From the NCBI GenBank assembly GCA_023512415.1, contig JAILZQ010000005.1:1-46821 (forward strand): 46,821 nt of DNA. Reading direction: 5' to 3'. Under the pieces are notes generated by a model that ran no database searches, had not been told where the DNA came from, and saw only the letters and a list, made by a program, of their open reading frames with translations. The position numbers and the translations under genes were made by a program. The first letter of the stretch is position 1; every line of letters begins with the position of its first letter. Source of the stretch: Geminicoccaceae bacterium (GTDB taxonomy: Bacteria; Pseudomonadota; Alphaproteobacteria; Geminicoccales; Geminicoccaceae). Shown piece after piece: positions 23,330 through 30,954 of the stretch.

Positions 23330-24493
23330 TCAGACACCCTCGGTTGAGGGTTCTGCGGTGTGCCAAAGCCGGCCCCGCAAGACGATGCTGTCGACGACCA
23401 GGCGGCGATCCCCCTCCATCTTCTCACCGAGAACGTCCTCGTAGACGTGCCGGCCGGGGACGATCCGTATCACCGTGGCATCGCCGGTCGACCCGATCGA
23501 CAGATCGGCCAGATCCGGTCGGCCGAGGATCCGAGCCGGCGTGACGGTCACTGCACGAACGATTTCCTCGAGCGGCATCCCGAGGCAGAGGAACTTCGAC
23601 ATGGTGACGAGATTGTCGAAGGCCGGTCCGTCGATGCAGAGCGTGTGCACGTCCGAACTGATCACGTCCGGCCAGAAGCCGGCCGACAACATGGCGCGCG
23701 CAGTATGAAACGAGAAGGAGCCTTTGCCGTGGGCGATGTCGAAGATCACCCCTTTCTCACGTGCCCTCCAGACCTGTTCGCGGACCCGGCCGTCGGCGTA
23801 GCAGGGGGCGTTCGGAAAGGGCTTGAAGCAATGGGTGAGGATGTCACCGGGCCGTAAGACCTCGAGGACGTCGACGTAGCGGGGAGGCGGCCGGTCGATG
23901 TGGCACATCACGGGAAGGCCGGCGCGGTCTGCAGCCTCGATCGCGAGGAACAGGGGGGAGAGGCCGTTGGCGACAGAAGTGTTGGCGCCGATACGGACCT
24001 TGATGCCCTTGACGAGGTCGGGATGTTCGCGAGCGACGCGAGCACACGCTTCGGGGCTCAACAACCGGAGATCGCCGGCCTCGCCGACCATGACCTCGTG
24101 CGCGAAACCGAAGATGCCGGCGAACGAAATGTGAAGGTAGGCCAATATCCTGGTCTCGGACCGCTCGATCACGTGCTTGCGGAAGCCCAGGAAATTTCCG
24201 GGCCCGGCCGAGCCGACGTCGACCCACGTCGTCGTACCGGAGCGCCGGGCCAACCGATCGGCTTCCACACCGAGGGATGTACCCCCCCAATAGACGTGGG
24301 CATGCAGGTCGATCTGTCCCGGAGTGACGACGCAGCCGTCGACGCGGCGTTCGGTGGCGGCCGTACCGGCCGCCGCTTCGGTCCCGATCGCCGCCACCTT
24401 TCCATCGCCGAACGCGATGTCGGCGATCTCGTCGCGGCCGGTACCCGGATCCAAAACCCGCCCACCACGAAGGATCAGATCGAATCGCGCCAT
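23330..24493 (-). CDS. Amidohydrolase-superfamily metal-dependent deacylase (COG3964-like)
   Basis: Binuclear-metal hydrolase of 387 residues, in the group often labelled amidohydrolase/deacetylase or mis-labelled dihydroorotase. Metal ligands can be assigned: H64 and H66 in DLHAHVYWGG, the likely carboxylated Lys165 in GIKVRI, H198 in VMCHID, H221 in LTHCF, and Asp291 in SSDVHT. The N-terminal FDLILRGGRVLDPGTG strand and the late TVTPARILGRPDLADLSIGSTGDATV segment frame the barrel. From memory, characterised members of this group cleave acylated (R)-2-hydroxy acids such as acetyl-(R)-mandelate. ATG at 24493 is chosen over an in-frame TTG nine bases earlier. It is the last gene of the minus-strand array and lies 72 bp after the binding protein. 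Confidence 0.85.
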   Translation of the reverse strand: MARFDLILRGGRVLDPGTGRDEIADIAFGDGKVAAIGTEAAAGTAATERRVDGCVVTPGQIDLHAHVYWGGTSLGVEADRLARRSGTTTWVDVGSAGPGNFLGFRKHVIERSETRILAYLHISFAGIFGFAHEVMVGEAGDLRLLSPEACARVAREHPDLVKGIKVRIGANTSVANGLSPLFLAIEAADRAGLPVMCHIDRPPPRYVDVLEVLRPGDILTHCFKPFPNAPCYADGRVREQVWRAREKGVIFDIAHGKGSFSFHTARAMLSAGFWPDVISSDVHTLCIDGPAFDNLVTMSKFLCLGMPLEEIVRAVTVTPARILGRPDLADLSIGSTGDATVIRIVPGRHVYEDVLGEKMEGDRRLVVDSIVLRGRLWHTAEPSTEGV

Positions 24494-24565
24494 CGGCCCC
24501 AACCCCCCTTTCAGCCGAGGCCTAGCGCCGCCGGAAGCAGCCGGGAAGCGCCGATTGCGCGGAGC

Positions 24566-25591
24566 TCATCCTTTCCCGGAGCGATCGACGAAACGCGGAT
24601 CGAACGTTCGCGACAGGTCGATCTTGGCCTCGGCCAGCTCCTTGTCGAAGCGAACGAGCATGTCGAGGGCGTTGCGCATGCCTTCGGGCGGCACGACGCC
24701 GGTCCGCGAATAGGTTGGCTTGGACTTGGCCACCGCGGCGAGATAGAGCGAGCGATCGCCGAGATGGTACTCCTCGGGCACGGCCGCGGCGATCTCCTCG
24801 GGGCTCGCTTTCTCGATCCAACGCAGAGCCGCCAGGAAGGCGTCGACGAGCGCTTGGACCGTGTTCGGATACTTTTCGATGAACTCGCCACGCGTGTAGA
24901 GCACGGCTGCCGGGTTGGAGCCGCCGAAGATGGCTCTCGTTCCTTCTTCCGTCCGGCTGTCGGCCAAGACGAAGACATCACCGTCCTGTTCGAGTTTGGC
25001 GATCACCGGATCGAGATTGGCGATTGCGTCGAGCTCCCCTTTCTTCATGGCCGCCACCGCGGTGGGTCCGGCGCCGACGCCGATGAAGGCCACCTTATCG
25101 GGGCCCACCCCTTCCTTGGCAAGCAAGAAGTTCACGAAAAAGTTGGTGGAGCTGCCGGGAGCCGTCACCCCGACTTTCATACCGACGAGGTCCTTGGGAG
25201 ATTTCACTTTATTCTCGAGGCCTTTTTTCACCGCGAGGACGATCCCCGGGAAGCGCCCGAGCTCGACCACTGCCCGGATGTCCTGACCCTTGGCCTGCAT
25301 CCGGATGGTGTGTTCGTAGGCGCCCGTCACCACGTCGACCGACCCCCCGACCAACGCCTGTAAAGATTTGGCACCCCCGCCGAAATCGTTGATCTCGACT
25401 TCGATACCTTGGTCTTTGAAGAAGCCTTTGCGCTCGGCGATGGTCAGGGGAAGGTAGTAGAGAAGAGGTTTGCCGCCGACCCCGAGCACGACCTTCGTTC
25501 TTTCGAGCGTTCGAGCAGAGAGCGGGCGGCCTTCGAAGGCGAGCCGAGTACCGCTGATCACTGCCGTGGCGAGAAGTGTACGTCTGCGCAT
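24566..25591 (-). CDS. ABC transporter substrate-binding protein (SsuA/NMT1-THI5 type)
   Basis: Periplasmic solute-binding protein of 341 residues, of the class used for sulfonates, nitrate, taurine, pyrimidine precursors and similar small molecules. An N-terminal MRRRTLLATAVISG resembles a Tat-like or Sec signal. The mature part shows YYLPLTIAERKGFFKDQGIEVEINDFGGGAKSLQALVGGSVDVV, the standard NMT1/SsuA start. PKDLVGMKVGVTAPGSSTNFFVNFLL is the hinge region. GGGAGG lies just upstream of the ATG. The permease gene precedes it by 73 bp and the hydrolase follows, so it is part of the same array. The ligand is not readable; the neighbours point to a small organic acid, ester or amide. Confidence 0.9.
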   Translation of the reverse strand: MRRRTLLATAVISGTRLAFEGRPLSARTLERTKVVLGVGGKPLLYYLPLTIAERKGFFKDQGIEVEINDFGGGAKSLQALVGGSVDVVTGAYEHTIRMQAKGQDIRAVVELGRFPGIVLAVKKGLENKVKSPKDLVGMKVGVTAPGSSTNFFVNFLLAKEGVGPDKVAFIGVGAGPTAVAAMKKGELDAIANLDPVIAKLEQDGDVFVLADSRTEEGTRAIFGGSNPAAVLYTRGEFIEKYPNTVQALVDAFLAALRWIEKASPEEIAAAVPEEYHLGDRSLYLAAVAKSKPTYSRTGVVPPEGMRNALDMLVRFDKELAEAKIDLSRTFDPRFVDRSGKG

Positions 25592-25664
25592 CGCGACCTC
25601 CCGTCGTCACGATGGAGAGCTTGGCGACCCATGCCCGGATCTGCAAGGGTCGAAGACATCGAGC

Positions 25665-26447
25665 TCAGCCCTGAAGGGTCGTCGATGCGGCTTGCGGTCG
25701 CCAAACGAGCAGCCGTCGCTCGACGAAGGAGACGATACCGTCGATCAGCAGGACGAAGACGGCGAGGATCAGCATCCCCGAAAAAACTCCGGTGACGTCG
25801 AAACTGCCCTCTGCCTGTTGGATCCGGTAGCCCAAGCCTGCGGCGGAGCCCAGATATTCGCCGACGACCGCACCCACGAGCGCGAACCCTACCGCCGTGT
25901 GCAAACTCGCGAACATCCAGGAGAGGGCAGCGGGCAGGTAAAGGTGCCGCAACATCTGCCGTTCGTTCATGCCGAGAATCCGGGCGTTGGCGACGAGTAC
26001 CGGGCTGACCTCCCTCACCCCCTGATAGACTGCGAAAAAGACGATGAAAAAGACGAGTGTGACCCCGAGCGCCACTTTCGACCAGATGCCGAGCCCGAAC
26101 CAGAGCGCGAAGATCGGGGCGAGGACCACCCGTGGCATGGCGTTGATCGCTTTGAGGTACGGTTGCAGCACCGCGGAGAGCCTCTCTTTGCGGGCGAGCC
26201 AGAAACCGGTCATTACACCGGCTATCGAGCCGATCACGAAGGCGAGCACCGTCTCCACGAGCGTGATCCAGAGGTGCCGCCAGATCGTTCCGGAAACGAA
26301 ATCACGCCACGTTCGCACAAGCACATCCCATGGACGCGAGAAAAAGAAAGGATCCAATATTCCTATCTCCGTACCAACATGCCAAGCGCCCAAGAAAGAA
26401 AACAGGACGAAAATTTGCCAGAACACGAGCGAGAATTTCGATTTCAT
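25665..26447 (-). CDS. ABC transporter permease (SsuC/TauC type)
   Basis: Inner-membrane subunit of 260 residues with about six hydrophobic helices. The binding-protein-dependent permease loop that contacts the ATPase is visible around AILGMNERQMLRHLYLPAALSWMFASLHTAVGFALVGAVVGE. It shows the conserved Gly and the AhVGE end of the family EAA region. The ATG at 26447 overlaps the ATPase stop (ATGA), so it needs no ribosome site of its own; a longer frame upstream would intrude into the ATPase gene. It is followed by the binding-protein gene. Confidence 0.92.
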   Translation of the reverse strand: MKSKFSLVFWQIFVLFSFLGAWHVGTEIGILDPFFFSRPWDVLVRTWRDFVSGTIWRHLWITLVETVLAFVIGSIAGVMTGFWLARKERLSAVLQPYLKAINAMPRVVLAPIFALWFGLGIWSKVALGVTLVFFIVFFAVYQGVREVSPVLVANARILGMNERQMLRHLYLPAALSWMFASLHTAVGFALVGAVVGEYLGSAAGLGYRIQQAEGSFDVTGVFSGMLILAVFVLLIDGIVSFVERRLLVWRPQAASTTLQG

Positions 26448-27265
26448 GGTGACAGTTCCGATCGCTGGTAACCCTTGATGACCTCGTTCCGCAATTCGTG
26501 CCACAGTGTGCGATGGATCTCCAGAAAGTCCGGGGTGAGACGGACCTCGTGCGTATCACGCGGCCGGGAGATCGGTACCCGATGATCGCCGATGAGCCTC
26601 GCTTCGGGGCCGGCGGACATGATGACGACTCGGTCGGCAAGTGCGATCGCTTCCTCGAGGTCGTGGGTAACGAAAAGAACCGCCTTTTTCTCGGCACTCC
26701 AGAGTTCGAGCAAAAGATCGCCCATGATCGAGCGGGTTTGTGCGTCCAGTGGACCGAACGGCTCGTCCATCAAAAGGATTGCCGGGTCACAGGCCAAGAC
26801 CTGCGCAAGCCCGACCCGTTTTTTCTGGCCACCCGAAAGTTGGTGTGGATACCGGTCGGCGAAGGCGGCCAGACCCACGCGGCCCAACCAGTGCCGTGCA
26901 CGGTCTTCGCACTCGCGGCGCGGTAGACCGCGCACCTCGAGGCCGAGGGCGACGTTGGCGAGAGCGGTCTTCCAAGGGAAGAGGGCCTCCTGCTGGAAGA
27001 GGTATCCTGCCCTCCGGTTGATTCCGGCGAGGGGCGACCCGTCGATCAAGACCTGGCCGGCCGAGGGCGCGATCAGCCCCGCCACGACGTTGAGCAAGGT
27101 GGACTTGCCGCAGCCCGTTGGTCCGACGAGCGCGACGAACTCCCCGGGTGCTACCGCGAGGTCGATCCGCGCCACGGCGGCATAATTGGTACCGTCCGGC
27201 AATCGGTAAACGATCGAAACGCCTTCGAGGCGCACCGCTTCGGTCGGCGTCTGCGCCACACCCAC
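26444..27265 (-). CDS. ABC transporter ATP-binding protein (SsuB/TauB type)
   Basis: Nucleotide-binding subunit of about 273 residues energising the uptake system. Walker A is GPTGCGKST, the Q-loop is LFQQEALFPW, the signature is LSGGQKKRVGLAQ, Walker B is ILLMDEPFGPLD, and the switch His is in VTHDLEEAI. The start is uncertain. A TTG at 27304 would overlap the dehydrogenase gene; I prefer GTG at 27265, which begins 13 bases after the dehydrogenase stop with GAGGGAAG upstream. GTG at 27259 is a close alternative. The stop overlaps the permease start. Confidence 0.92.
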   Translation of the reverse strand: MGVAQTPTEAVRLEGVSIVYRLPDGTNYAAVARIDLAVAPGEFVALVGPTGCGKSTLLNVVAGLIAPSAGQVLIDGSPLAGINRRAGYLFQQEALFPWKTALANVALGLEVRGLPRRECEDRARHWLGRVGLAAFADRYPHQLSGGQKKRVGLAQVLACDPAILLMDEPFGPLDAQTRSIMGDLLLELWSAEKKAVLFVTHDLEEAIALADRVVIMSAGPEARLIGDHRVPISRPRDTHEVRLTPDFLEIHRTLWHELRNEVIKGYQRSELSP

Positions 27266-27278
27266 CGACGGTCTTCCC

Positions 27279-28208
27279 TCAATAACCCCGAGCGGGGTCG
27301 ACAAGGTGCAGGAGTGGCTCGCCGCGCTCCAGCCGGCGCAGCTGCTCGACGATCACGGCCGTGGCGGTGCGCGGGTTGGTGATGCCGGCGGCATGCGGCG
27401 TCACGAACACCTTCGGATGGCGCCAGAGGGGCGAGCTCTTCGGAAGAGGTTCGTGGGCGAACACGTCGAGCATCGCTCCCTCGAGCCTGCCGGTTTCGAG
27501 CGCCGCCAAAAGATGGGGCACGACGAGATGCTCGCCACGGGCGACGTTGACGATGTAGCTGCCGCGCGGGAGCTGCTCGAACAGCCGGCGATCGAGGATA
27601 CTCGCCGTGTCCGGTGTGAGCGGGAGGAGACAAACGAGAATCCGAGTACGAGCGAGGAAGGCGGGTAGGCCCTCCTCGCCGACGAACACCGGCACCTCGG
27701 CCTCGGGATGGGGCGAGCGGGCCCACGCGGCGACATTGTAGCCGAGCTGGCGCAGCAGCCGAACGGTGGCGCTGCCGATCGCACCCAGGCCCATCACGCC
27801 CACCCCGACCTCGCCCGGATCGGGGTGCTGGTGCCGCTCCCAACGGGCCTGGGCGAGCTGCCGCTCGTAGACGTCGAATTGCCGATGGAAGCGGAGCGTG
27901 GCGTAGAGGCAATACTCGGCCATCCGTTGCGACATGACCGGATCGACGAGCCTTGCCACCGGTACGGGCGGGAGTCGCGGATGGGAGCGCAACAGGCCGT
28001 CGACCCCCGCACCCAAAACCTGGATCAGCCGGAGGTTACGCATGCCGGCGAAGAGGTCGGGAGGCGGCTGCCAACAGAGAACAGCCTCGATCTCGGCCGG
28101 ATCACCGATTTCCGGCCAGACCCGGACGTCGAGGTCCGGGGCTTGGCGGAGGAGCTCGGCGCGCCATGCCGCTGTCGTGTTCCAGGTGGTTTGCAGGACG
28201 ACCTTCAT
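27279..28208 (-). CDS. ghrA: D-2-hydroxyacid dehydrogenase, glyoxylate/hydroxypyruvate reductase A type
   Basis: NAD(P)-dependent oxidoreductase of 309 residues that interconverts a 2-oxoacid and the D (R) 2-hydroxyacid. The dinucleotide site is VMGLGAIGSATVRLL (G140-x-G142-x-x-G145), and the catalytic triad is Arg224 in VARGEH, Glu253 in AHEPLP and His272 in TPHAAGI. It matches the GhrA subgroup, lacking the ACT-domain tail of SerA. A strong GGAGGGAGGGG precedes the ATG. Embedding between pxpC and a transporter ATPase suggests a dedicated catabolic role rather than general glyoxylate reduction; the direction may be oxidation of a D-hydroxyacid. This is inference from context. Confidence 0.88.
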   Translation of the reverse strand: MKVVLQTTWNTTAAWRAELLRQAPDLDVRVWPEIGDPAEIEAVLCWQPPPDLFAGMRNLRLIQVLGAGVDGLLRSHPRLPPVPVARLVDPVMSQRMAEYCLYATLRFHRQFDVYERQLAQARWERHQHPDPGEVGVGVMGLGAIGSATVRLLRQLGYNVAAWARSPHPEAEVPVFVGEEGLPAFLARTRILVCLLPLTPDTASILDRRLFEQLPRGSYIVNVARGEHLVVPHLLAALETGRLEGAMLDVFAHEPLPKSSPLWRHPKVFVTPHAAGITNPRTATAVIVEQLRRLERGEPLLHLVDPARGY

Positions 28209-28301
28209 CCCCTCCCTCCGCCCGCGGCCCGGGAGCTTTGCCCACCGCGCCCACGATCGGCAAGGCCCGCCCGCCGACGGAGCGGTGCAACTCTCGAGAG
28301 C

Positions 28302-29336
28302 TCAAGGCTCGCCAGCTGTGACCCCGCTCACGAGGTTGACGGACAGGAGAAAGCCCGCGTCCAGGCGTCCGCTACACGCCACCGGCTCGAGGCCGGCAAG
28401 CGCGGCCTCGAGCCGCGCCCTCGCTTCGGCTCGTGCCTGGAGGGCCTCTTCGAAGGTTACGGCTCGGAAACGGATCGCTCCACCGACGCCGACTTGCGCC
28501 AGCCGGCCGATATCGGCCCCGATCACGGTCGCGATTTTCGGATAGCCACCCGTGCTCTGGCGATCGGCCATCAAGACGATGGGCTGGCCCGACCCCGGAA
28601 CCTGGATCGCGCCCATGACGATGCCGTCGGAGACGATGTTCGGTGAGCGCGCGTGTTCGATTCGGGGCCCTTCCAAGCGATAGCCCATGCGGTCGCTGCG
28701 CGGCGAAACGCGCCAAGTTCCTTCGAGCAAAGTAGCGATGCCAGCTTTGCCGAACCAAGCTTCTTGCGGGCCGAGCACGACCCGGATCGGGCCTTCGGGC
28801 TCGGGTGGTGGCGCCGCCAAAGTCAGGTCGGGGAGACCGGCCCCGATCTCGGAATCGGTGAGCGGCAGGCGATCGCCAGCGCGCAACGCCCGCCCCTCGA
28901 GCCCCCCGAGGCGGGTCAGCGTGTGGGTGGCCAGGCTGCCCATCACGGGCGACAAACCGAGACCACCGGCGATGGCGACGTAGGACCAGACGCCGCGGAG
29001 AGCGGGCCCGATCTCGACCCGCTGGCTGCGCACCAAGCCGAGAACCGACCACCAAGGGAACGGCCGCCCGTCAACCGCCAACGCGCGTTCGGCGCCGCCG
29101 AAGGCGAGCCGAGCACGCTCCGCCTCGACACGGAGCACGAGGCCGCCAGGACCGAGCTCGAGTCCGGCGTCGTTGCCGGCCGCACCGACCAGACGCACGG
29201 CGAGGCGCCAGGCCCAAGGATCCATCGGCCCCGCCGGCGTCACGCCGAAGCGCTGATAGCCGAACCGGCCCACGTCTTGGACCGTGACGAGGGGCCCGCA
29301 GCGCTCGACGAGAAGGGAGGGGGTGGGGTCGATCAC
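28302..29336 (-). CDS. pxpC: 5-oxoprolinase subunit C (biotin-dependent carboxyltransferase-like)
   Basis: Subunit of the prokaryotic ATP-dependent 5-oxoprolinase PxpABC, which opens 5-oxo-L-proline to glutamate; formerly annotated as KipA or urea-amidolyase-like. The 344-residue protein begins LLVERCGPLVTVQDVGRFGYQRFGVTPAGPMDPWAWRLA, the diagnostic PxpC N-terminus. It continues with SYVAIAGGL, VVLGPQEAWF, SDRMGYRLEGP and the late GQPIVLMADRQSTGGYPKIATVI. The start is GTG at 29336, overlapping the pxpB stop by four bases (GTGA). The next gene, ghrA, begins 93 bp later. Confidence 0.94.
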   Translation of the reverse strand: MIDPTPSLLVERCGPLVTVQDVGRFGYQRFGVTPAGPMDPWAWRLAVRLVGAAGNDAGLELGPGGLVLRVEAERARLAFGGAERALAVDGRPFPWWSVLGLVRSQRVEIGPALRGVWSYVAIAGGLGLSPVMGSLATHTLTRLGGLEGRALRAGDRLPLTDSEIGAGLPDLTLAAPPPEPEGPIRVVLGPQEAWFGKAGIATLLEGTWRVSPRSDRMGYRLEGPRIEHARSPNIVSDGIVMGAIQVPGSGQPIVLMADRQSTGGYPKIATVIGADIGRLAQVGVGGAIRFRAVTFEEALQARAEARARLEAALAGLEPVACSGRLDAGFLLSVNLVSGVTAGEP

Positions 29337-30073
29337 GCGGGCTCCGGAGCGATCAGCGGGTCGTGCGCAGCGGCGCGGCGATCGAGCTCGTCGAAGGTCG
29401 CCGGATCGATCGGCACGAAGCGGACCCGATCCCCCGGCTCCAAGAGCAGGGGCGGCGTGCGCTCCGGATCGAAGGTGCGCACCGGCGTGCGGCCCAAGAG
29501 GTGCCAGCCCGAGGGGATTTCGAGCGAAGCGATCCCGGCCTGGATACCACCGATCGAGACGCTGCCGGCCGGTGTCCGCGGCCGTGGATCGTCGAGGCGG
29601 GGAGTGTACAATCGCGGATCGAGCCCGCCCAAGTAGGTGAAGCCCGGAACGAAACCCACCATGTAGACGCGGTAGGTTGGGCCCGTGTGCAGCTGCACGA
29701 CTTCCTCGGCGCGGAGGCCGTGCCGCCGGGCGACGGCCTCGAGGTCGATCCCGAACTCGCCACCGTAAGCCACCGGTACGGTCCAGAGCCGACCCTCGGG
29801 TGGTGTCCCGGGATGCTCAAGGTCGAGCTTCGAAAGACGGGCGAGCAGCACCCGTCCGTCTATGCGCTCGGGATCGTAATGGACGAGTAGCGAGCGGTAG
29901 GTCGGCACGAGTTCGATGACGCCCTCGAGCTCGAGGCTACGGATCTCCGCATCGAGCGCCAACACGGCCGCGTTGATCAGCGGATCGATGGTCTCGCCGA
30001 GCTCGAGCAGGACGGCCGAATCCCCGACCGGAACGACTCTCGGCCGAAACGGCTCGGACGCGGGCTCGCTCAT
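29333..30073 (-). CDS. pxpB: 5-oxoprolinase subunit B
   Basis: Partner subunit of PxpC (formerly KipI-like), 246 residues. Family features are VVPVGDSAVLLELGETIDP, LVPTYRSLLVHYDP, VPVAYGGEFGIDLEAVARRHGL, YRVYMVGFVPGFTYLGGLDPRL and the C-terminal GIQAGIASLEIPSGWHLLGRTP. The ATG at 30073 has an AGGTG about seven bases upstream. It leads the minus-strand array and diverges from pxpA across 104 bp, which must hold both promoters. In many genomes pxpA, B and C run in one direction, so the split here is of interest. Confidence 0.94.
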   Translation of the reverse strand: MSEPASEPFRPRVVPVGDSAVLLELGETIDPLINAAVLALDAEIRSLELEGVIELVPTYRSLLVHYDPERIDGRVLLARLSKLDLEHPGTPPEGRLWTVPVAYGGEFGIDLEAVARRHGLRAEEVVQLHTGPTYRVYMVGFVPGFTYLGGLDPRLYTPRLDDPRPRTPAGSVSIGGIQAGIASLEIPSGWHLLGRTPVRTFDPERTPPLLLEPGDRVRFVPIDPATFDELDRRAAAHDPLIAPEPA

Positions 30074-30093
30074 GCGCAACACCTAGCGCGCCA

Positions 30094-30119
30094 CGAGCGT
30101 GCCGTCAGCGGCACGTTCG
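30094..30119. promoter_or_regulatory. Candidate operator dyad between pxpA and pxpB
   Basis: CGAGCGTGCCG and CGGCACGTTCG, around a TCAG centre, form an almost perfect 26-bp dyad: 11-bp arms with a single mismatch and an uninterrupted 7-bp core at 30098-30115. It lies 20 bases from the pxpB start and about 60 from the pxpA start. That is a natural site for a regulator controlling both directions. No regulator gene is next to it. Confidence 0.5.
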
Positions 30120-30177
30120 GTTGCTCCTTCGCAGCGAGTGGTTAGGCTGGCCGCGACCAAGGTCGGAGAGCGCGGCG

Positions 30178-30954
30178 ATGCAAACCAAGGTGGATCTCAA
30201 CGCCGATCTCGGCGAGGGCTTCGGCGCCTGGACGATGGGCGAAGACGAGGCGATGCTCGCTGTCGTGAGTTCGGCCAACGTCGCCTGCGGTTTCCACGCT
30301 GGTGATCCTCTCGTGATGTGGCGGACCTGCGAGCTCGCCAAGGCCCACGGTGTCGCGGTCGGCGCCCACCCCTCGTTCCTCGACCTCTGGGGCTTCGGGC
30401 GACGGCCGATCCAAGGCGAGCGACCGGAGGACATCATGCGCCACTGCGTCTATCAGATCGGCGCCCTCCAGGCGGTGGCGGCGGCGGTCGGGCACCGGGT
30501 CACGCATGTGAAGCCGCACGGCTCGCTCGGCAACATGGCAGCCGAGGACGACGGGCTCGCCATGGCGGTAGCCGAAGCGACCAGCCTCTGCGGGCGCGAC
30601 CTCGTGCTCGTGGCCATGCCAGGGAGTGCTCTCGAGCGTGCCGGTGAGCGAAAAGGTCTCCGGGTCGCGCGAGAGGTCTTCGCCGATCGCGCCTACGACG
30701 ACCGCGGGATGTTGGTCAGCCGAAAGCTGCCCGGTGCGGTGTTGCACGACGCGGAAGAAGCCGCGCGCCGGATCCTTCGGATGCTCGAGGACCAGGCGAT
30801 CACGAGCCAGTCGGGAAACAAGGTGCCAGCCAGAATCGATACGATTTGTGTTCATGGCGACAATCCAGCGGCGGTCGCCATGGCACGCGCCGTGCGCTCC
30901 GCGATCGAACGGGCCGGCGTGACGATCCGGCCATTTCACGAATGGCTCGCTTGA
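30178..30954 (+). CDS. pxpA: 5-oxoprolinase subunit A (LamB/YcsF family)
   Basis: Subunit A of PxpABC, 258 residues. It opens with VDLNADLGEGFGAW, followed by SANVACGFHAGDP, VAVGAHPSFLDLWGFGRR, VKPHGSLGNMA and REVFADRAYDDRGMLVSRK, all family hallmarks. The central motif reads HGSLGN where HGALYN is commoner, a mild variation. The ATG at 30178 has GGAGAG eight bases upstream, and the motif DLGEGFG then starts at residue 10, as usual. It is transcribed away from pxpBC and ends 27 bp before a convergent gene. Confidence 0.94.
   Translation: MQTKVDLNADLGEGFGAWTMGEDEAMLAVVSSANVACGFHAGDPLVMWRTCELAKAHGVAVGAHPSFLDLWGFGRRPIQGERPEDIMRHCVYQIGALQAVAAAVGHRVTHVKPHGSLGNMAAEDDGLAMAVAEATSLCGRDLVLVAMPGSALERAGERKGLRVAREVFADRAYDDRGMLVSRKLPGAVLHDAEEAARRILRMLEDQAITSQSGNKVPARIDTICVHGDNPAAVAMARAVRSAIERAGVTIRPFHEWLA

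Follow-up and report, generated by a model that had tools for sequence, protein, structure and literature searches.

The 46,821-nucleotide stretch of a Geminicoccaceae genome analysed here (the window) carries at 23330–30954 a divergent array of eight genes built around the 5-oxoprolinase genes pxpA, pxpB and pxpC. Seven open reading frames (ORFs) lie on the minus strand and encode PxpB, PxpC, a GhrA-like D-2-hydroxyacid dehydrogenase, the ATPase, permease and solute-binding protein (SBP) of an ABC importer, and a metal-dependent hydrolase, with pxpA opposite them on the plus strand (Table 1). The ORF calls bear out the layout described in a first-pass annotation of this DNA, including its small gaps and overlaps: pxpB and pxpC overlap by 4 nt (29333–29336), and the ATPase and permease genes overlap if the permease begins at ATG 26447. 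Larger gaps separate pxpC from the dehydrogenase gene (93 nt), the permease gene from the SBP gene (73 nt) and the SBP gene from the hydrolase gene (63 nt). ATG 24493 is the more likely start of the hydrolase gene, and for pxpA a start at ATG 30178 is more likely than one at TTG 30121.

Table 1. Features of the 5-oxoprolinase array in the window, in order from pxpA to the hydrolase gene.
Feature	Position	Strand	Evidence
pxpA (LamB/YcsF), 5-oxoprolinase subunit A	30178..30954	+	PF03746 325 bits; NCBIfam NF003814 371 bits, above cut-off; ATG at 30178
pxpA/pxpB divergent intergenic region, 95 nt	30083..30177	.	predicted promoter role
pxpB	29333..30082	-	PF02682 242 bits; reaches TIGR00370 equivalog cut-off
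pxpC (biotin-dependent carboxyltransferase-like)	28302..29336	-	PF02626 281 bits; reaches TIGR00724 cut-off
Paired boxes CTTGCCG-N-GGGCAAAGCT 5' of dehydrogenase gene	28234..28264	-	conserved; candidate promoter
GhrA-like D-2-hydroxyacid dehydrogenase	27279..28208	-	PF02826 151 bits; PRK15469 265 bits (below cut-off)
ABC importer ATPase	26444..27304	-	PF00005; TauB type is best match, below all equivalog cut-offs shown
ABC importer permease	25665..26504	-	PF00528; start GTG 26504 or ATG 26447
CTTGNC...CCAAGCT boxes 5' of binding-protein gene	25618..25647	-	conserved; candidate internal promoter
NMT1/SsuA-like solute-binding protein (SBP)	24566..25591	-	PF13379/PF09084; 3qsl E 4e-98
COG3964-type (PRK09237) metallo-amidohydrolase	23330..24493	-	PRK09237 402 bits; 2ogj E 1e-58

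The gene identities proposed earlier are secure at the level of superfamily, but the exact names PxpC, GhrA and SsuA are not, because the curated cut-offs are missed. Homologues of PxpA, PxpB and PxpC lie adjacent with all three Pfam domains above cut-off, and PxpABC would, by the known chemistry of the family, open 5-oxoproline with ATP to yield glutamate. The third subunit scores 224 against the 500 bits of the PxpC equivalog model (NF045499) while reaching the domain model, so that PxpC-like is the appropriate wording and the family is assigned by context. The dehydrogenase has the 2-Hacid_dh_C domain, the Arg/Glu/His triad and the GxGxxG motif of the D-2-hydroxyacid dehydrogenase superfamily, with R224, E253 and H272 conserved among relatives, and is termed GhrA-like since the GhrA equivalog cut-off is 403 bits; the genome encodes another GhrA-type paralogue on a separate contig (C145). 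The label of an SsuABC-type importer had to be dropped in favour of SsuA-like: the SBP scores 109 against 163.5 bits for SsuA (TIGR01728) and 45 against 304 bits for TauA, and the importer proteins fall below the cut-offs for the SsuA family, TauA, TauB and SsuB. Its closest solved relative, 3qsl, is presumably a Bordetella bronchiseptica protein, and as in other NMT1/SsuA-like systems the SBP, permease and ATPase genes share one cluster. The hydrolase exceeds the PRK09237 cut-off of 371 bits; its residues H67, H69, K168, H224 and D284 are invariant in 41 relatives, and H201 is kept in 39. It thereby retains the metal-ligand pattern (HxH, Lys, His, His, Asp) of 2ogj, common to the solved COG3964 members 2ogj, 8wzy, 8je0 and 2ics, to all of which its similarity is distant. 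The relative Atu3266 (2ogj) reportedly hydrolyses acetyl-(R)-mandelate, a D-hydroxyacid ester.

As in the PxpABC loci of E. coli, B. subtilis (ycsF-kipI-kipA) and C. glutamicum (pxpTABC), where adjacent uptake genes are frequent (PMC13274462), pxpA, pxpB and pxpC occur together. The array differs from these loci in its divergent pxpA, in having no GntR regulator gene and in the appended dehydrogenase, importer and hydrolase genes. On other contigs the same genome has a second pxpA (G000:C37:29555-30253, L073) and a second, divergent pxpB (G000:C242:7-543, L074); congeners G001 and G003 have only the set of the window type.

The array is more than a chance arrangement. All five congeners keep the order of pxpA diverging from pxpB, pxpC and the dehydrogenase gene, with the hydrolase gene beyond, at protein identities of 67–94%, and four of the five have the importer at the same place. 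In the fifth (L031, SKYG96) the hydrolase gene directly follows the dehydrogenase gene after a gap of 74 nt, the importer is absent, and no importer SBP was found elsewhere in that genome. A tree built from seven proteins of the array and its flanks, with the sister genus (L037) as root, nests L031 among the members of the window genus (splits 0.987 and 1.000), which makes loss of the importer the most economical interpretation. In another congener (L032) pxpC and the dehydrogenase gene are separated by genes for a circularly permuted ATP-grasp protein (CP_ATPgrasp) and an Alpha-E protein, which run in the opposite direction (L032:3648-6090). Wider synteny is also held in the genus, extending to tolC-like, pepF-like and other flanking genes. 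This flanking conservation, and the separation of the components outside the genus described below, would fit chance neighbours in a young genus whose synteny is still undecayed. Such an explanation is very improbable: protein identity has already dropped to 80–90% across the genus with the close spacing of co-directional genes intact, and in the sister genus pxpBC, dehydrogenase and hydrolase genes still follow one another in this order, though the genes between dehydrogenase and hydrolase differ.

Several transcription units are suggested by predicted signals. The gap between pxpA and pxpB is 85–96 nt in every congener and contains, directed to pxpB, a Caulobacter-type sigma73-like element (CTGACGG...GCTAG, 30083–30108) that is the sole sigma73-type match in the window, and, directed to pxpA, TTGCTC...TAGGCT. 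The box pair CTTGCCG and GGGCAAAGCT stands 5' of the dehydrogenase gene in all six genus members and is absent in L037, and a similar pair stands 5' of the SBP gene in all five importer-bearing genomes; within the window the box motif lies mostly upstream of genes. Scans of the window for sigma70-type promoters and terminators performed no better than on shuffled sequence, and no RNA families were found there. If the box pairs are promoters, as they appear to be, the minus-strand genes would form more than one transcription unit, and separate promoters are probable for pxpA, for pxpBC, for the dehydrogenase, ATPase and permease genes, and for the SBP and hydrolase genes.

The corresponding site in the sister genus, seen in Marinimicrococcus flavescens (L037), adjoins the tolC-like gene and contains pxpA, a DctPQM TRAP transporter lying between pxpA and pxpB, pxpB, pxpC and a GhrA-like dehydrogenase gene, followed by genes for a PGDH-like dehydrogenase, an M20 carbamoylase-family hydrolase, an iron-ADH/G1PDH-like protein and the COG3964 hydrolase. 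Its GhrA-like dehydrogenase and COG3964 hydrolase are 63–71% identical to those of the window genus, and the window-type ABC importer is absent. TRAP and ABC importer thus alternate between the sister genera, as do the genes between the dehydrogenase and the COG3964 hydrolase. The structures closest to the DctP protein of L037 are 2pfz and 2pfy, presumably those of two Bordetella DctP proteins with pyroglutamate bound. Crystal structures of a pair of DctP proteins from Bordetella pertussis contain bound pyroglutamic acid (PMC5812351, PMC12344293).

Outside the two genera the components part. At 35 hydrolase loci, no pxpA, pxpB, pxpC, M20 hydrolase, SBP of this importer or any of five query dehydrogenases was encoded within 8 kb; 24 of these loci extend 5 kb or more to either side, and some represent the same genome fetched twice. 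In one relative without pxp at that place (L067) the hydrolase gene adjoins the same tolC-like gene, so that this adjacency looks older than that of pxp and hydrolase. Neither pxp nor the hydrolase was found near the importer in 20 readable proteobacterial loci, 18 from a 397-genome sample of the phylum and 2 from another genus of the family (L058, L061), where the importer stands alone; L160 was left out as unreadable by a simple gene caller. A random draw of 289 alphaproteobacterial genomes gave 40 PxpB-type loci that were read, and nearby there was no COG3964 hydrolase, no dehydrogenase and no NMT1-type SBP; TRAP genes were present at nine, branched-chain amino acid-type binding proteins at two and D-glutamate cyclase relatives at five. 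Of the conserved co-occurrence of pxpABC, hydrolase and importer that the first-pass annotation proposed to look for, the window genus shows all but the importer in L031, and Marinimicrococcus shows pxpABC and hydrolase without the importer. The importer does sit with pxpA on plasmids of Thermus thermophilus (L081, L147, L148). These carry an SBP 50–53% identical to that of the array, followed by a pyroglutamate-type TRAP transporter, an MBL-fold gene and pxpA; pxpB and pxpC are not in the stretch fetched.

The neighbours of the importer elsewhere, read by eye, are dnaX-ybaB-recR, a phosphomethylpyrimidine-kinase family gene, and CoA-transferase and HMGL-like genes; as housekeeping-type genes in the sampled lineages they are uninformative as a clue to its substrate. 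In one alphaproteobacterial family (L149, L150, L151, L153) importer relatives adjoin a PhzF-like gene and a phosphomethylpyrimidine-kinase family gene that by eye is pyridoxal-kinase-like, which might point to a ligand related to a vitamin in that family.

The importer might be the genus's own 5-oxoproline uptake system, replacing pyroglutamate TRAP or APC-type transporters, with the hydrolase an unrelated neighbour. Known pxp operons do include an uptake gene, as with PxpT of C. glutamicum (PMC13274462), the TRAP of L037 is of pyroglutamate type and no TRAP is present in the array of the window genus, and the Thermus plasmids run from importer through TRAP to pxpA. However, the importer genes sit after the dehydrogenase gene, downstream of separate promoter-like boxes, and are never with pxp in the 20 readable proteobacterial loci, DctP relatives occur also in Thermus and the five congeners, and L031 retains pxp without the importer. 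This explanation is quite improbable.

A single catabolic pathway, essentially the module with dedicated importer and hydrolase put forward in the first-pass annotation, would have the importer bring in a conjugate, cyclic or acylated at N or O, for cleavage by the hydrolase, after which PxpABC would process the lactam product and the dehydrogenase the D-hydroxyacid. The neighbourhood behind this proposal is conserved throughout the genus, the catalytic residues of hydrolase and dehydrogenase are intact, the reported activity of Atu3266 on a D-hydroxyacid ester would suit it, and importer and pxpA are paired in Thermus; against it, the importer is lost in L031 and absent in L037, the hydrolase is apart from pxp at every outside locus, and the promoter-like elements are separate. 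The parts of a single operon should stay together in more distant genomes as well, yet importer and hydrolase are separate from pxp there. The annotation had itself named independently moving blocks, or separate promoters without shared induction, as the observations that would tell against it, and most of this is found: importer and hydrolase occur apart from pxp, and candidate promoter boxes precede pxpB, the dehydrogenase gene and the SBP gene. A single obligate pathway was rejected as the primary interpretation because importer and hydrolase move independently; the case for one pathway is weak, and it is considered unlikely.

The interpretation preferred here, with a probability of roughly 0.66, sees in the array a 5-oxoprolinase locus of the kind standard in alphaproteobacteria, with lineage-specific accessory scavenging genes, rather than one obligate pathway: the pxp genes form an ordinary PxpABC locus and the whole is a mix-and-match neighbourhood. 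The dehydrogenase would have joined pxp in the common ancestor of Marinimicrococcus and the window genus; its probable role is to convert a 2-oxo acid and a D-2-hydroxy acid arising alongside into one another. The NMT1/SsuA-like importer would have been added in the window genus only; because Marinimicrococcus has a pyroglutamate-type TRAP instead, it most likely carries a small carboxylate for the same scavenging metabolism. The dinuclear-metal hydrolase may be an older resident of the site, hydrolysing small acylated acids on its own account. Some points weigh against the preferred interpretation. The tight gene order across the genus speaks for a benefit in keeping the genes together; within the family, hydrolase and pxp are found in the same genomes above expectation in a simple Fisher test uncontrolled for ancestry and genome size (p 0.002; 0.03 without the two genera); the Thermus pairing may mean that importer and pxp are functionally tied after all; and the promoters are predictions only.

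One element of the joint idea gains support, the association of PxpABC with a D-2-hydroxyacid dehydrogenase, which was observed in at least three PxpABC lineages. A set of 12 plasmid pxp loci was chosen by PxpB similarity and hence is not a random sample; within 8 kb, 9 of them have a D-2-hydroxyacid dehydrogenase and 8 an M20 hydrolase. The frequency of the dehydrogenase in the random alphaproteobacterial draw was 0/40. A PxpABC tree puts the loci that carry the dehydrogenase at three or more separate positions. Plasmid loci of Rhizobiales and Rhodobacterales form a supported clade together with G018 (1.0), Terrarubrum branches with two loci lacking the dehydrogenase (0.98), and the window genus groups with Marinimicrococcus (1.0). 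The dehydrogenases belong to different subfamilies, the window type being 25–36% identical to the others. That the two were brought together repeatedly points to a functional reason, although the plasmid loci were selected and the PGDH-M20 pair has likely been transferred horizontally.

Recurrent plasmid and chromosomal clusters (L168, L169, L170, L171, L172, L173, L175, L084, L063) combine divergent pxpA, pxpB and pxpC with a PGDH-like 2-hydroxyacid dehydrogenase gene and a TRAP or ABC transporter, mostly also with genes for an M20 carbamoylase-family hydrolase and an M24 peptidase-family protein; D-amino-acid transaminase, GntR regulator and VOC genes are present in many. A literature search found no account of these pxp-PGDH-like-M20-M24 clusters. 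Those of Agrobacterium, Rhizobium, Shinella, Paracoccus, Salipiger and Terrarubrum share with the array pxpABC, a D-2-hydroxyacid dehydrogenase, a hydrolase and a transporter, but differ in the dehydrogenase subfamily, in having M20/M24 proteins rather than COG3964, in PxpABC lineage and, in many cases, in the transaminase and GntR genes. A D-glutamate cyclase gene (PF07286, annotated "putative hydro-lyase"; family checked for L083) stands beside pxpABC at the alphaproteobacterial loci L083, L089, L097, L106, L108, L117 and L174, and in three congeners a gene of this type adjoins a DctP gene away from the array; the window genome has none. A rather unlikely proposal starts from the repeated joining of PxpABC with a D-2-hydroxyacid dehydrogenase and, in other genomes, with D-amino-acid transaminase, M20/M24 hydrolases or D-glutamate cyclase as well. 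These combinations could mark a D-specific route of 5-oxoproline/glutamate breakdown not described so far, leading from D-5-oxoproline or D-glutamate to a 2-oxo acid and a D-2-hydroxy acid, and the window array would be a reduced form of it with its own importer.

The array offers no clear new chemistry of its own; it shows a common 5-oxoprolinase locus exchanging transporters and hydrolases between lineages. For ligand screening, the association of importer and pxpA on plasmids of Thermus offers a practical clue, and the pairing of PxpABC with a D-2-hydroxyacid dehydrogenase, seemingly undescribed, is a testable lead on what these loci degrade.

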